In this document: in pieces, positions 308 to 8,161 of the stretch | Position numbering within the stretch: position 1 is the stretch's first letter | How the letters are laid out: each line of letters opens with the position of its first letter | Assembly (NCBI RefSeq): GCF_020740535.1 | Contig: NZ_CP082362.1 | Coordinates: 5,330,501-5,394,500, forward strand | Length of the DNA: 64,000 bases | Source of the DNA: Streptomyces profundus | Lineage (GTDB): Bacteria; Actinomycetota; Actinomycetes; Streptomycetales; Streptomycetaceae | Direction of reading: 5' to 3' | Program-made: the position numbers and the translations under genes | The notes under the pieces: generated by a model | Database searches by the model: none | Seen by the model: the letters and a program-made list of their open reading frames with translations, nothing else | What the model was told of the DNA's origin: nothing

Positions 308-2382
308 CCGTTCCGCCGCCCCTTCGTCACCTGCTGGTGATCGCGCCCCAGTGCCCGGCCCTTGGCCAGCTGGACGGGCTTGAGGAGGTGGCGCGCGCAC
401 TGCACGAGACCCTGCTGGATCGCCGGACGGGCGCCTGCGAGGCGGGCCCGCCCGGGGTGGAGACGCTGCTGTACGGGCCCTCGCTCGGACAGGCGCGGAT
501 CGAGGGGGCCATCCGCGACGCGGCCCGACGGGCCGGCCGGGCCGGGGCGGAGCTGGTGCTGGCCCTGGTCGGCCACGGCACGATCCACGGCGGGGTGCCC
601 GAGCTGTATCTGATGGCGGCCGACTCCCGCCCCGACGAGCCGACCACGGTGGTCGATGTCGGCGACCTCCTCGGCCAGGTGCTCGACACCCAGGGGGTCA
701 GGGGGGTCGTCGCGCTCGTCGACACCTGCCACGCGGGCGGCGCCATACCCGACCTCGCCGCGCTGGGCGGCGGCATCAGGCGGGGCACCGGCCGGCTGTC
801 CCTGCTGATGTCCGTCGGGGTCGACGAGGACGCGTACGGCCTCGCGTTCACCCGCGGACTGGTCCGTGTCCTGCGCGGCGGCATCCCGGGCGAGGGCGCC
901 CACCTGTCGGCCAGGGCGGTGTGCGTGGCCGTGAACGAGGCGACGGGGACGGCCGCCCGCCTGGTGGACGCGGACGGCGATCCCCTCCCCGGACAGCACC
1001 CCTGGATCGCGCGCAACGTCTGCCACCGGCCGGCCGACGGGCCGCTCCTCGGGCCCGTGGGCGCCGAGGAACTCGCCTGGGCGTTAAGGCCGTTGGGCGA
1101 GGACGTGCCCCCGCTCCCCGGCACCGCCGATCTGGAGGGCCTGCGGCGGCGACTGCGGGATCCCGGGGTCGGCGGCACGGCGGCGCCCGAGGACGCCGCG
1201 TACGCGAGGGCCGTCGTCGACGGGCTGCTGACCGCCACCAGGACGGTGGAGCTGCTGCGTGACTGGCCGGGTGGCCCGTTGACCTCGGAGCGGCTGCGCC
1301 GCGCGGCCAACGCCGCCGGTGGCAGCGCGGCCTGTCCGCCGCACCTCGGCGGTGGCGATCTGCTGCGGCACTGCGCCGAGTTCCTCCGCCTCAGGGCGCC
1401 CAGGGGCGCGGGCGACCGCGAGGCGCATCTGGCCGAGTTCGTGGCGGCGCTCGCCCACGAGGACGGCATCGACCCCGACACGCCCGAACTGGCCGCGTGG
1501 ATCAGGGCCACGGGCGCCGCCATCGAGTACAACGACGCCGTCGCCGCGCTCGCCGACCGGGAGAACGCCTCCCGCCTGCGGCTGGTCGTCAGCCTGCACG
1601 CGGCCCTCGCCGACGCGTGGCCGGAGACCTTGACCGCCTGGCTCCTGGACCGCGGCGAACAGGTGGCCTACGGGGACTTCCCCTGCCCCGCCACGCAGCC
1701 CGGCATCGAGGGAACCCTGGCGACCATCCTCGCCTGGGCCACCCGCCAGGCTCGGAGGATAGGCGCCCGCCTGCGGCGGGTGGAGATCGCCGCCTCCGCG
1801 CACCAACTGGTCCACTGGCGCCCCGAGGAGTCGGACATCGGGACGCGGCTCGGCCGCACGCACAACGTCGTGCTGCGCTGGAGCGACCGGCTCTGCCCGC
1901 CGGCGCATCTCGGCTGGATCAACGACTACGCCCGTGACCGCCTCGCGGCCATGAACACCGGTCAGGACGGCTGCGCGCCCGTCGACTGGCTCGGCAAGGA
2001 GGAGACCGGCTCCGCACGCGAGTTGACGGCCCGGCTGGCCGACGGGGTCTTCGAACGGGCGGTGGCGCTCGGCCACCGCCCCGCCCAACTGGACCAGCTG
2101 ATGCCCGCGTTGCTGGCCCACGCCCCGATCGTCCTGTGGCCGGCGGACGACGAGGATCTGCCAGCGGCCACACGGGACGGCGTCAACCGCCACTGGGACC
2201 GGCTGCCCGAGCGGTTCAGCGAGGCCTACCGCGACGACTGGCGGGCCAACCCGGGGCCGAACGGCGCGCGCCACGACAGGCCGGCGCTCGCCCGGCTGCG
2301 ATGCGTCTGGCACGACACGGAGTGGCTCGACTTCTGCGACTGGTTCGAGACACAAACGACCGACGGAGCGAACACCCTATGA
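304..2382 (+). CDS. caspase-VMAP protein (effector of a vWA-MoxR-VMAP system)
   Basis: 692 residues. Residues 5-170 are a peptidase C14 (caspase) domain: catalytic His91 in LVGHGTIHG and Cys142 in VDTCHAGG, both intact. A helical middle region follows. From about residue 420 to the end is a VMAP-C domain (vWA-MoxR-associated protein, C-terminal), recognisable from GEQVAYGDFP, VVLRWSDRL and IVLWPADD. In the known ternary systems the VMAP protein carries the effector, here a protease, and is gated by the MoxR ATPase and vWA partner encoded next. Starts and stops overlap on both sides as ATGA. Codon 261 (bases 1084-1086) is TTA, so translation should need the bldA tRNA; nearly all other Leu codons are CTG or CTC. 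Confidence 0.88.
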   Translation: MTVPPPLRHLLVIAPQCPALGQLDGLEEVARALHETLLDRRTGACEAGPPGVETLLYGPSLGQARIEGAIRDAARRAGRAGAELVLALVGHGTIHGGVPELYLMAADSRPDEPTTVVDVGDLLGQVLDTQGVRGVVALVDTCHAGGAIPDLAALGGGIRRGTGRLSLLMSVGVDEDAYGLAFTRGLVRVLRGGIPGEGAHLSARAVCVAVNEATGTAARLVDADGDPLPGQHPWIARNVCHRPADGPLLGPVGAEELAWALRPLGEDVPPLPGTADLEGLRRRLRDPGVGGTAAPEDAAYARAVVDGLLTATRTVELLRDWPGGPLTSERLRRAANAAGGSAACPPHLGGGDLLRHCAEFLRLRAPRGAGDREAHLAEFVAALAHEDGIDPDTPELAAWIRATGAAIEYNDAVAALADRENASRLRLVVSLHAALADAWPETLTAWLLDRGEQVAYGDFPCPATQPGIEGTLATILAWATRQARRIGARLRRVEIAASAHQLVHWRPEESDIGTRLGRTHNVVLRWSDRLCPPAHLGWINDYARDRLAAMNTGQDGCAPVDWLGKEETGSARELTARLADGVFERAVALGHRPAQLDQLMPALLAHAPIVLWPADDEDLPAATRDGVNRHWDRLPERFSEAYRDDWRANPGPNGARHDRPALARLRCVWHDTEWLDFCDWFETQTTDGANTL

Positions 2383-3320
2383 CCTGGCAACCGTTCTATG
2401 TCGGCGACGGCACCCCCCGGGACGTGGATCTCGGCGAGCCACCGCCGTGGCGCCGCTTCCCCAGGCAGTCCCTGCACCGGGAGTTCCAGCCGCCGCCCGG
2501 GTTGGTCGAGGCGGTCAACGCCGCGCTGGCGCTGCGCCGCCCCCTGCTGCTGACCGGCGCCCCAGGTTCGGGCAAGTCGACGGTGATCGAGCAGGTGGCA
2601 CAGGAGTTGAAACTGGGCAGGACACTGCGCTGGCACATCACCTCCCGCAGCACCCTCACGGACGCGCTCTACCACTACGACGCGCTCGGACGCATCCACG
2701 CCCAGCGTCTGGAGGGCGGCCGAGGCGCCGACGCCGGCGCCGATGACATCGCCCCCTTCGTGCGCCTCGGCCCCCTCGGTACCGCGCTGCTGCCGGGGGA
2801 ACGCCCTCGGGCCCTGCTCGTCGACGAGATCGACAAGAGCGATCTCGACCTCCCCAGCGACCTGCTCGACGTGCTGGAGCGCGGCGAGTTCGAGATCCCC
2901 GAACTCGCCCGCTACCGGGAGGACGTCGTCCATGTCCGCGAGGCCGCGGAGAACACCCTCGCCGCGCTGGAAAAGGGCCGGGTGCGGTGCACCGTCTTCC
3001 CGTTCCTCGTGCTGACCAGCAACGGCGAACGCGACTTCCCCGCCGCGTTCCTGCGGCGCTGCGTCCGCTACACCATGCCGCAGCCCACCGTCGCCACGCT
3101 GCACCGGGTCGTCGCCGCCCACCTTCGGGTCGACGAGGCCCAGGCCGGCGCCGTGGACACCCTGGTGACCGCCTTCGTCGAACGACTTGAGGCGGGCGAG
3201 AGCCTGGCCGTCGACCAACTCCTCAACGCCGTACATGTGTTGACCGCGCAGGAGGCACCGGCCGAGGACGACGCGCGAAGCGTGCTGGAGCTGATCCTCC
3301 GTGGGCTCACCCATGCCTGA
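2379..3320 (+). CDS. MoxR-type AAA+ ATPase of the VMAP system
   Basis: 313 residues from the ATG that overlaps the preceding TGA. A longer upstream reading frame exists, but the ATGA junction and the family length favour this start. Walker A is GAPGSGKS at 60-67, Walker B is LLVDEID, sensor 1 is LTSNGER, and an arginine-finger region FLRRC follows. MoxR ATPases act as chaperone-like remodelers of vWA-domain partners. Here the ATPase probably controls assembly or release of the caspase-VMAP effector encoded upstream, together with the vWA protein downstream. All motifs look functional. The stop overlaps the next gene by 8 bp. Confidence 0.9.
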   Translation: MTWQPFYVGDGTPRDVDLGEPPPWRRFPRQSLHREFQPPPGLVEAVNAALALRRPLLLTGAPGSGKSTVIEQVAQELKLGRTLRWHITSRSTLTDALYHYDALGRIHAQRLEGGRGADAGADDIAPFVRLGPLGTALLPGERPRALLVDEIDKSDLDLPSDLLDVLERGEFEIPELARYREDVVHVREAAENTLAALEKGRVRCTVFPFLVLTSNGERDFPAAFLRRCVRYTMPQPTVATLHRVVAAHLRVDEAQAGAVDTLVTAFVERLEAGESLAVDQLLNAVHVLTAQEAPAEDDARSVLELILRGLTHA

Positions 3321-6300
3321 ACCACTGGCCCTGGCGGTCGGGGCGCTGCGCGGCGTCGCCCCCGAGCTGGACGCCACCGGACTCGCCGAGGCGCTGTGGC
3401 TGGCCTCCCTGATGGCCGAGCCCTCGGGAACCGCCGACGGGTCCGCGCGCTCGCCGTCGACCACCGGCCAGGACCAGGAGCTGGAGCGCCGCTCTCCGCC
3501 GCCGCGCCCCGAGCGCCACGGCGGCTCCGGGACCGAACGTGCGAACCCGTCCGAACTCGCCCTCCACGAACGGCTGTCCGGGTCCACCGCTCGGGTGCGC
3601 GGCGAGGTGGTGGACCTCCCGGGCGCCGCCGCCCTGCCGCTCGCCCTGGAGCTGGCCAGGGCCCTGCGCCCCTGGAAGCGGCCCTGGCGCGGCGGGCGGC
3701 ACCAGGCCCTGGACATCGAAGCGACCGCCCAGGACTACGCGCGCAGCGGTGAGTTGATCCCCGTCTTCACCACCGCGCCGGAACGCTGGTTCGACCTGGT
3801 CGTGGTCGTCGACCGGTCCCCGTCGATGCTGGTGTGGCGGGAGACCATCGACGCCTTCACCGCCGTCCTCGACCAACTCGGGGCCTTCCGCACCCTCCAG
3901 ATCCGGGACCTCACGCTCGACGCCGACGGCGAGGCCACCCTCCGCGACGGCCAAGGGCGCGCCGGCAACCCGGGGCAGCTGCGCTCCCCGACCGGCCGCC
4001 GGCTGGTGCTGGTGGTGTCCGACTGCGCCCCCCGCGCATGGCGGGCCCCGGAGATCTGGCGGCAGCTGCGCGCCTGGTCCCGCACCACGCCCGTCGCGCT
4101 GCTCAACCCCCTGCCGGTGAAGCTGTGGCGCTCCGCCGGCCTCGACCTGCCGACCGTCCGCGTCCGACCGGGGCGGCCGGGCGCCGCCAACAACGAACTC
4201 TCCTTCACCCGGCCGACCATGCTCTCGCCCAACGGGGCGGACGAGTGGGAGGGGTGGATGCCGCTCCCGGTCCTGTCCCTGACCCCGCACTCCCTGGCCC
4301 GCTGGTCGGACACCGTGATGCGCGGCGACCCCGGGGGCTGCGGCGCGGTCCTTGTCCCCCCGGACGGCCACCCGGTGAGCCGCCGACGGGCCCGCTCGTC
4401 CCCCCGGGGCCCCGAGGAGCGCGCCCGGGGCTTCCTCCGGACGGCTTCGCCCCCGGCCATCCGACTCGCGGTGCTCTGCTCACCCTTCGACCAACTGAGC
4501 CTGGCGCTGCTCCATCTGATCCGCCAGGAGATCGTCCCGGAGGCAACCACCTCGGACATGGCCGAGCTCCTCACCGCCGGTATCCTCCCCCTGCGGACGG
4601 ACCCCGAAGGGGTGGCCGTCCTGACGGTACCGGCCCCGGTCCAGGCCCTGCTGGGCGACGAACTACGCGACCACGAACGCCACCGCGTCCGCCGCACCCT
4701 CGCCGGCCTGCGCATCGCGCGTGCCGCCGGCGGTCGCGGCCCGACCGCCGTGGTGAGCGGCGGCCGGGCCACGGACGAGGTCCTGGCCGAGCCCACCCCG
4801 TTCGGCTACGTCCTGGCCGGCGCCGCCCCGGCCCCGCCCACGGAGTCCGTCAGCGCGACGGCGGCGCGCCTCGCGATGACCCTGCTGCCCTGGGACGGTC
4901 CGCGGTGGCCGCGGCCGGGGGATCTCGTCTCCGCGGTGGACACGACGCTGGAGCTGCTGGCCGACCAGGACCTCGGCACCGACCGCGCGGCGCTGCTGCG
5001 GGAGTTGGAGTCCCTCGTCAACGTCTGGCAGGCGCCGGCGGAGGGGGAGGCCGATCGCGCCAGCCACTTCTGGTCCCAGTACAAGCGGTATCTGACGGAG
5101 GACCAGCGCGTCGCGGCGCCCGTGGTCCTGCGCATCGACGAGGACACCAGGGACGTGCTGGCCCAGCTGGAGGACCCCTGGCGTTTGGGCAGGTGGCGAC
5201 GCGGTGGCCGGCTCGTCAGCCACCCGAGGCTGGATCGGACGGCGCACGCCATCGGCCTGATGGCCAAGGCCATCGACGCCGGTTACCGGCTGGTCGTGCT
5301 GATCGCCGGGACCACGGACGGCGAGCGCAGCGAGGTGCAACAGAGAGTCGACCGGGGCCTGTTGGGGTTCGACACCAGGTTCCGGCCGCGCGCCCCGCGG
5401 GACGGCGAGGACGCGGCGCACCGGCGCGGCGTCGGCTCCGCCCCGCACGCCGAGCGGCTCGACATCGTCGCCATGACGAGCAGCGGCGAGGGAGGGGACT
5501 TCAGCCCGGAGCACGCGAGGCGCCTCCCGTTCCTCGTGGGAACGCTCCCCCACGTCTTCGTCGTCAAGCGGAACTCCCGCGTCCTGGACAGCCTCGGCAA
5601 GTGGCTCGCCGACCTGCCGGGAACGGGCGCCGCCGGAGTGACCCGTGACCTCCCCCTGCTGGTCGTCGATCACGACGTCGACGCGACCTCCACGCGTTTC
5701 CTCTCGGCGTCGGGCGGGGGCCCGTCCACCCCCTGGGCCGCGAGCGTCCGCGCCCTGGTGGACCGCTTCGAGAGGTCCGTCTACCTCGGATACGGGGAGT
5801 CGCCGGTCGGCGGACTGCCCACCGGCTTCGAACTCCGGGGGAACGGATTCCTGCTCTCCCCCGACACCTTCCGCCACACCCTGCGCGTGCCGTCGTCAGA
5901 TGCCACGAGCCCCGCCGGCTCGTCCGACCCGCTCCGGGAACCCCTCCCGCCCCGCTCGGAGTCGAGCTTCCACCCGGTCACCGACCACGAGGAGTGGATG
6001 CCCGCCCGGCACCCGGCGGCGCATGTGCCGAGCTCGGAGCTGCCCCCCTCGCTGTGCTCGGCGATCGACGCGTTTGTGCTCGCCTGCGCCGCGCGCCGCG
6101 CTCACGGGGACTTCTCGGAGACCTGTTCCATGCTGGTGAGCGTCAGCCGGCACCCTCGGGTCCAGGCCCATGTGCGGGACTGGGTCGACTCCCGCGTCCG
6201 CGGGATCGAGGACACCCTCGGGGCCGGCGGCCCCGAGGCGGAGCGGCGGATGGCCGCCTTCGAGTCCGCCTGGGCGACGCACCTCTCACCCGCCGAACCG

Positions 6301-7245
6301 GGAGAGCTCTCCTGGCGGGACGTCGCGCCGCATGTGCGATGGGCCGTCGCCAGCATCCGGGTCCGGACCTTCGACGGGGAACCACGGGACATGACGGCGT
6401 TCTCCGAGCGCGCCCCGGGGAGCAGGAACACCATCGCGGTCACGGTGGCCCTGTCCACCGCCAGCCTTCCCATCGACGGGCCCACCGTCGCCTATGTCCT
6501 CGGCTCCCCCCGCGACTCCCTCTTCCCACCCCGGTGGTTGGGCGAGTTCCGCGGCGGTCGCAACGGCATCAGGCGCCTCTACACCACCCCGGACAACCAC
6601 GAGAAGTGGGGGCGGCCCGGCCGCGTCGGCCCCCCCGCCACCTCGGGTCGCTCCGGACCGGTGGTCGAGACGCCGCGCTTCAGCCTGTCCCCCGAGGTCC
6701 TGAGGAACAACTTCCAGACGTTGGAGCGCATGGTCGCCTCGCTCGACCGGATCGCCCCCGGATCGGTGCACCCTCTCGACCGCACCGTGCTGTGGGAGGG
6801 GGTGCCCATGGACCAGGTGACCGGATTTCTCGACGCGTACCAACTCTCCCAGGACGGGCGGCCCGGCGTCGACGCCGACGCACGCGCTCGCGCGGCTGCC
6901 GGCGGGCCCGACGGCTGGAACGTGTGCCTGATGAGCCGGGGGCACGCTCCCCAGCGGGCGGCCGTCGCCCAGCACCTGATCGGGCTGGTGCAACGATCGC
7001 CGCTCGACGAACCCGGGGCCGACGTCGACGAGCTGGTGCGCCGCCTGGTCGCCCCGGAGGACGAGCGCGCCGACCCGGCAGCGGGACGGGAGGGCGGGGC
7101 CGTCCACCGCCGCGACCGACCGCTGTTGTTGCTCTACCTGCTCCGCCAGCCCCTCGGGGCCGACGCCGGGAGCCCCACCCCCATCGTCGGGTTCTTCATG
7201 AGATTCCCCCCCTCCGACGCGGGGCCCCTCGCCGGGGATCGGTGA
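3313..7245 (+). CDS. SAV_2336-type vWA protein fused to a degenerate Z1/SF2 helicase-like module
   Basis: 1310 residues from ATG 3313; a GTG at 3301 would add four. Residues 1-35 match the SAV_2336 N-terminal motif (ELDATGLAEALWLASLM). Residues 155-270 are a vWA domain with an intact MIDAS (D167-R-S169-P-S171), followed by the usual helical region to about 490. Residues 500-1310 then follow the layout of Z1-domain helicase-like proteins: KAIDAGYRLVVLIAG, VVKRNSRVL, LVVDHDVD, YLGYGESPVG, SMLVSVSR, and a late WNVCLMSRG / PIVGFFMRFP segment. Where I remember the family having Walker A (GHVQSGKT), this protein reads SHPRLDRT; DDEAD is DHDVD and TATPFA is ESPVG. It should therefore not hydrolyse ATP there. 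The Z1 assignment comes from remembered consensus, not a search. Confidence 0.85.
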   Translation: MPEPLALAVGALRGVAPELDATGLAEALWLASLMAEPSGTADGSARSPSTTGQDQELERRSPPPRPERHGGSGTERANPSELALHERLSGSTARVRGEVVDLPGAAALPLALELARALRPWKRPWRGGRHQALDIEATAQDYARSGELIPVFTTAPERWFDLVVVVDRSPSMLVWRETIDAFTAVLDQLGAFRTLQIRDLTLDADGEATLRDGQGRAGNPGQLRSPTGRRLVLVVSDCAPRAWRAPEIWRQLRAWSRTTPVALLNPLPVKLWRSAGLDLPTVRVRPGRPGAANNELSFTRPTMLSPNGADEWEGWMPLPVLSLTPHSLARWSDTVMRGDPGGCGAVLVPPDGHPVSRRRARSSPRGPEERARGFLRTASPPAIRLAVLCSPFDQLSLALLHLIRQEIVPEATTSDMAELLTAGILPLRTDPEGVAVLTVPAPVQALLGDELRDHERHRVRRTLAGLRIARAAGGRGPTAVVSGGRATDEVLAEPTPFGYVLAGAAPAPPTESVSATAARLAMTLLPWDGPRWPRPGDLVSAVDTTLELLADQDLGTDRAALLRELESLVNVWQAPAEGEADRASHFWSQYKRYLTEDQRVAAPVVLRIDEDTRDVLAQLEDPWRLGRWRRGGRLVSHPRLDRTAHAIGLMAKAIDAGYRLVVLIAGTTDGERSEVQQRVDRGLLGFDTRFRPRAPRDGEDAAHRRGVGSAPHAERLDIVAMTSSGEGGDFSPEHARRLPFLVGTLPHVFVVKRNSRVLDSLGKWLADLPGTGAAGVTRDLPLLVVDHDVDATSTRFLSASGGGPSTPWAASVRALVDRFERSVYLGYGESPVGGLPTGFELRGNGFLLSPDTFRHTLRVPSSDATSPAGSSDPLREPLPPRSESSFHPVTDHEEWMPARHPAAHVPSSELPPSLCSAIDAFVLACAARRAHGDFSETCSMLVSVSRHPRVQAHVRDWVDSRVRGIEDTLGAGGPEAERRMAAFESAWATHLSPAEPGELSWRDVAPHVRWAVASIRVRTFDGEPRDMTAFSERAPGSRNTIAVTVALSTASLPIDGPTVAYVLGSPRDSLFPPRWLGEFRGGRNGIRRLYTTPDNHEKWGRPGRVGPPATSGRSGPVVETPRFSLSPEVLRNNFQTLERMVASLDRIAPGSVHPLDRTVLWEGVPMDQVTGFLDAYQLSQDGRPGVDADARARAAAGGPDGWNVCLMSRGHAPQRAAVAQHLIGLVQRSPLDEPGADVDELVRRLVAPEDERADPAAGREGGAVHRRDRPLLLLYLLRQPLGADAGSPTPIVGFFMRFPPSDAGPLAGDR

Positions 7246-8161
7246 GGAGGGTGGCCAACTGGTCGGCCAGCGCCGTGAGGTGGTCGAGGGACGGGCCCTC
7301 GCGGGCGATGCGGAAACCGTGGCGGCGGGCCCAGAACGCGGTCTCGACGGCGTGGAACTGCGCCCAGCGCCAGACCCGTTCGGGATCGAGTTCGGCGGCG
7401 TCGGCGAACCCGTCCAGCGCGCGGGCGACGGCCCGGCGCGGGTCGTCGGCCCGGGCGAGCGTCAGCGCGCGGGACTTGAGCAGGGCGCCGCTGTCATAGG
7501 CGGGATCGCCCGCGTACCCCTTGGGGTCCACGGCCAGCCAGGGTTCGCGTTCGGCCCGCAGGATGTTGCCGGGGTGCAGGTCGCCATGGACCAGCGTGTC
7601 CGGCTGGTCGCGGCCCAGCTCGCGGACGGTCGCCCTGGCAGCCGCCACCACCCGGGGCGCCAGGGCGTGCGTCAACTCGGCCGCGTCCCGCCGCAGTTCC
7701 TCCTCCCAGGTGTCGGCCCGACCGCGCAGCCTGGGCAGCCCCGGCGGGGCGGCGACGGCCAGCCGGCGGCTGATCCGTCCGGCGATCCGCACCACCTCGT
7801 CGCCGTCCGGCACCTCGGCCAGGGTCGCCGTGTCGGCCCGCTCCAGCAGCATCGCGAAGCGCGCGTCGTCCCGCTCGTGCAACAGCACGGCGCCGCGTCC
7901 GCGCCAGGCCGCGAACGCGTCGGGCTCGTGGACGTTGCCCGGATGTGGGAACGACACCTTCAGCACGGCGGGCCCCGAGGCGCCGCGCCGCACCGGCACG
8001 ATGACGCCGACGCCGCCATGCGTCACCCCGCCGTCCGGCACACAACCCCAGCGGTCCAGCAACTCCGCGACGATCCCCGGCAGTTCGGCCAGCCACCCCG
8101 CCGCGGCGTCCCCCTCACGCTCCCGCGTCCCCCACGCGAACGCCTCCGGTACGGTGATCAT
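7196..8161 (-). CDS. aminoglycoside/hydroxyurea phosphotransferase family kinase
   Basis: 321 residues with the APH fold. The catalytic loop is LVHGDLHPGNIL and the metal-binding segment is AVDPKGYAGD, which resembles streptomycin 6-phosphotransferase / hydroxyurea kinase (APH(6)) proteins. The ATP-binding lobe contains VLKVSFP. It should phosphorylate a small molecule in the cytoplasm; the substrate cannot be read from sequence, and members are often housekeeping or self-protection kinases. It converges on the conflict operon and its last 50 bp overlap the 3' end of the vWA gene on the other strand. The start ATG at 8161 has no competing candidate nearby. Confidence 0.85.
   Translation of the reverse strand: MITVPEAFAWGTREREGDAAAGWLAELPGIVAELLDRWGCVPDGGVTHGGVGVIVPVRRGASGPAVLKVSFPHPGNVHEPDAFAAWRGRGAVLLHERDDARFAMLLERADTATLAEVPDGDEVVRIAGRISRRLAVAAPPGLPRLRGRADTWEEELRRDAAELTHALAPRVVAAARATVRELGRDQPDTLVHGDLHPGNILRAEREPWLAVDPKGYAGDPAYDSGALLKSRALTLARADDPRRAVARALDGFADAAELDPERVWRWAQFHAVETAFWARRHGFRIAREGPSLDHLTALADQLATLLTDPRRGAPRRRGGIS

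Follow-up and report, generated by a model that had tools for sequence, protein, structure and literature searches.

A predicted dead MzaC-like motor on the vWA protein of a VMAP conflict system in Streptomyces profundus

What might a helicase-like module without its catalytic motifs be doing on the vWA protein of a bacterial conflict system? The question is raised by a 1310-aa protein of Streptomyces profundus (NZ_CP082362.1; single-contig genome, 7.65 Mb), encoded without an internal stop at positions 3313 to 7245 of the forward strand of the 64,000-nt window analyzed here (5,330,501-5,394,500). A sequence-only reading had described it as a vWA protein fused to a Z1 helicase-like module stripped of its NTPase motifs. 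Its arrangement is of a type already described, the VMAP ternary conflict systems (vWA-MoxR-VMAP; Kaur et al. 2020 eLife, PMC7159879), which are among its closest known relatives. Its novelty is therefore that of a variant, the new feature being a uniformly dead motor apparently taken from another defense system.

A pseudo-MzaC module without motor motifs

Nearly the whole module (4846 to 7227, forward strand, as are all features below unless stated) is homologous to MzaC of the MZA system (hhalign E 5.7e-92, 36% identity; MzaC model E 2e-63), the match being continuous at the level of sequence profiles, and its match to PF10593 (Z1; 6049 to 6609) reaches 63.2 bits against a cut-off of 25, in agreement with the proposed kinship to Z1 proteins. 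At 214.4 bits, it stays below the equivalog cut-off of NF041933 (MzaC; 1500 bits), as does the standalone protein P0003 at 719 bits. It differs from MzaC in being fused to vWA, in having lost the ATPase motifs, and in lying in a genome without DUF4420 and AIPR.

Alignment confirmed the degenerate motifs noticed earlier. Compared with active superfamily 2 (SF2) helicases, Walker A (motif I; 5218 to 5241, residues 636-643) reads SHPRLDRT, with DRT for GKT; DHDVD replaces DDEAD at motif II (5668 to 5682, residues 786-790), with HD for DE; and GESPV replaces TATPF at motif III (5794 to 5808, residues 828-832). Motif V (6457 to 6480, residues 1049-1056) is TASLPIDG instead of SRGLTLEG, with A for the Arg. 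The earlier statement that no GRWFGYR-like segment exists needs amending: the intact motif VI is gone, but a remnant, PRWLGEFR (6529 to 6552, residues 1073-1080), keeps PRW with the first Arg. Judged by these positions, the module lacks the hallmarks expected of an active SF2 helicase or ATPase. By comparison, each CglI monomer hydrolyzes ∼170 ATP per second, and CglI requires its DE pair, where the S. profundus protein has HD at what we infer to be the corresponding position.

The motif II Glu is missing from all 28 fusions, and the pseudo-helicase prediction holds for the fusion clade as sampled. The lost Walker A is not shared by all of them: the group of P0002, L067, and P0027 still has GKT, together with DDD and (S/G)RWFG[Y/F]R.

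Origin of the module

In quick trees made without bootstrap and without the motif columns, a single branch (SH-aLRT, an approximate likelihood ratio test, 100) split 24 fusions from 40 standalone proteins, and this split persisted after removal of eight long rows, that of S. profundus included, whose own place within the fusion clade is unsure because of its branch of 1.49. The fusions group with MzaC-like proteins of actinobacteria. At both standalone loci inspected, MzaC is lined up with genes that match MzaB, MzaD, and MzaE; MzaA was not identified at these two loci, where the adjacent gene is without a match in PADLOC. None of MzaB, MzaD, and MzaE was among the neighbors at the S. profundus locus (hydrolase, VMAP, MoxR, APH-type kinase, and MFS). 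Apparently, the module was taken over from another defense system as an MzaC-like motor.

Selective loss and points of decay

For conservation, we took 97 standalone proteins, picked the 83 positions that at least 95% of them share, and scored these positions in 24 fusions, with motif limits set by us and gaps counted as loss. Mean retention was 52% for motif positions versus 76% for the remaining ones (p 5e-5). Glu301, Asn321, Asn346, His459, and Lys669 (P0003 numbering) were lost in 24/24 fusions and Arg573 in 23/24; 29 of the 83 positions were retained in at least 95% of fusions, 26 of them outside motifs. L064/L065, the sole pair with unsaturated synonymous sites (dS 0.05), gave a ratio of nonsynonymous to synonymous substitutions (dN/dS) of 0.34 for the module and 0.40 for the vWA part. 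The loss of motor parts in the S. profundus copy and in the relatives found suggests that the module may be kept for gripping something, not for moving DNA.

Several observations weigh against such retention. Compatible with partial decay, the S. profundus module has a branch among the two longest of the fusions, lacks ∼40 residues relative to P0002 around residue 1100, and shows pairwise dN/dS of 0.67-0.71 versus four relatives and 0.35 versus L067, values that at a dS of about 0.9-1.5 are too near saturation to lean on. The fusions have one newly conserved module position versus eight in a standalone subclade of 24 under the identical rule, which speaks against a strong new function and leaves no new site common to them in view. 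Moreover, the markers DUF4420 and AIPR were not found in five of six fusion genomes, that of S. profundus included (MzaB was not searched genome-wide), so that a decoy protecting an MZA of the host itself does not fit most of these genomes.

The vWA half and its partners

The SAV_2336-type vWA region (3373 to 4704, residues 21-464) scores 364.8 bits with NF041121 (cut-off 200). Its metal ion-dependent adhesion site (MIDAS), DRSPS at residues 167-171, is intact as previously read, with D167, S169, and S171 invariant in 7/7 fusions, among which the linker to the module is poorly conserved. Distances in the vWA part correlate with those in the module (r 0.71, 0/2000 permutations), as expected of parts that travel together.

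The partner had been named as a caspase-VMAP system, and VMAP, MoxR, and vWA genes do follow in this strict order on one strand, identically in 5/5 other fusion loci. The VMAP gene (304 to 2382) encodes an N-terminal caspase of the EACC1-associated type (NF047832 E 9e-15, under the curated cut-off) in which both His (VGHG) and Cys (DTCHAGG) are present, the dyad being compared with that of four homologues. VMAP-M2 follows (PF19965 E 1.9e-54), and VMAP-M, the middle region, occurs in 5/5 VMAPs of alignment A3. VMAP-C (PF20028) was not found at E ≤ 1 in five VMAPs, though their C-terminal region is conserved among them, and hhalign against the VMAP-C protein of a paralogous locus gave no match. 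In the MoxR-type AAA+ ATPase (2379 to 3320; PF07728 E 3.1e-06), both the P-loop (GAPGSGKST) and Walker B (DEIDK) are intact, and homologues 68-77% identical to it occur in 5/5 other fusion loci. By eye, its N-terminal PPWRRF fits PsWRxa, and WQPFYVG only approximates WxhapG.

What the module may do

We predict that this is a suicide-type defense operon, which may protect against phage. Fusions of vWA to caspases, trypsins, kinases, and cyclases that are inactive are on record (Kaur et al. 2020, PMC7159879). The present fusion resembles them in placing a dead enzyme in the effector position next to seemingly active partner enzymes, and differs in that the dead part is a motor from another defense system. 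The mode of action we prefer, tentatively, is that the module would be bait.

Alternatively, the module might be freed proteolytically to interfere as a dominant-negative or decoy. Kaur et al. (PMC7159879) suggested both this kind of action and proteolytic effector release, and the poorly conserved linker would suit it. We nonetheless consider it rather unlikely, as the markers of an MZA that could be poisoned are mostly missing from the fusion genomes, with the above proviso for MzaB.

The sequence-only reading had proposed a new sensor or DNA-recognition arrangement, of which the pseudo-helicase stands across the clade as sampled but the novelty shrinks to that of a variant. A module that still bound DNA after losing ATP hydrolysis, alerting the VMAP complex to DNA that is foreign or modified, seems unlikely. 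Some residues near motifs III, IV, and V touch nucleic acid in SF2 helicases, and Asn346, His459, Lys669, and Arg573, which lie near these motifs, are among those lost. Relative to standalone proteins, the RecA1 part of the fusions is more positive and the C-terminal part less (−1.5 per 100 residues in S. profundus); on whether DNA is bound, the charge comparison is ambiguous.

A motor dispensable since fusion, decaying while carried along for a needed vWA half, would account for the divergence and raised dN/dS of the S. profundus copy, for the few newly conserved positions, and for L100, which looks like what a deletion left of such a locus. We regard it as improbable given 28 long predicted proteins across a deeply diverged clade, the 29 positions still kept, and the low L064/L065 ratio, though at a dS of only 0.05. 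Finally, that fusions of the P0002/L067/P0027 group, with their surviving motifs, still bind or slowly hydrolyze ATP is very improbable with the motif II Glu gone throughout and, in S. profundus, both Gly and Lys of Walker A lost too.

Genes around the operon

An alpha/beta-hydrolase gene (350 aa; Abhydrolase_6 E 1.5e-4, under the family cut-off) starts upstream of the window (L002:13756-14808) and ends within it (1 to 307). A homologue lies immediately 5′ of VMAP in 4/5 other fusion loci, and overlaps chain hydrolase to VMAP, VMAP to MoxR, and MoxR to the fusion gene. Downstream, on the opposite strand, are genes for an APH_6_hur-type aminoglycoside/hydroxyurea kinase (7196-8161), convergent with the fusion gene and sharing 50 bases at the 3′ ends, and for an MFS transporter; we do not count either in the system. 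Just 5′ of the hydrolase-VMAP operon, on the same strand, a 1142-aa NACHT-HEAT protein (L002:9615-13043) may be a further defense gene; no match was seen beside the other loci, whose flanks extend <3 kb past the hydrolase, too short to judge conservation.

Among the fusions, P0144 stands out at 1942 aa, ∼500 residues longer than the others, with no other Pfam match in the extra part. The S. profundus genome also holds a second VMAP system (L099; C1:1957000-1966500), in which a 1096-aa vWA protein with no Pfam effector match accompanies a MoxR match and a VMAP-C protein that matches trypsin weakly.
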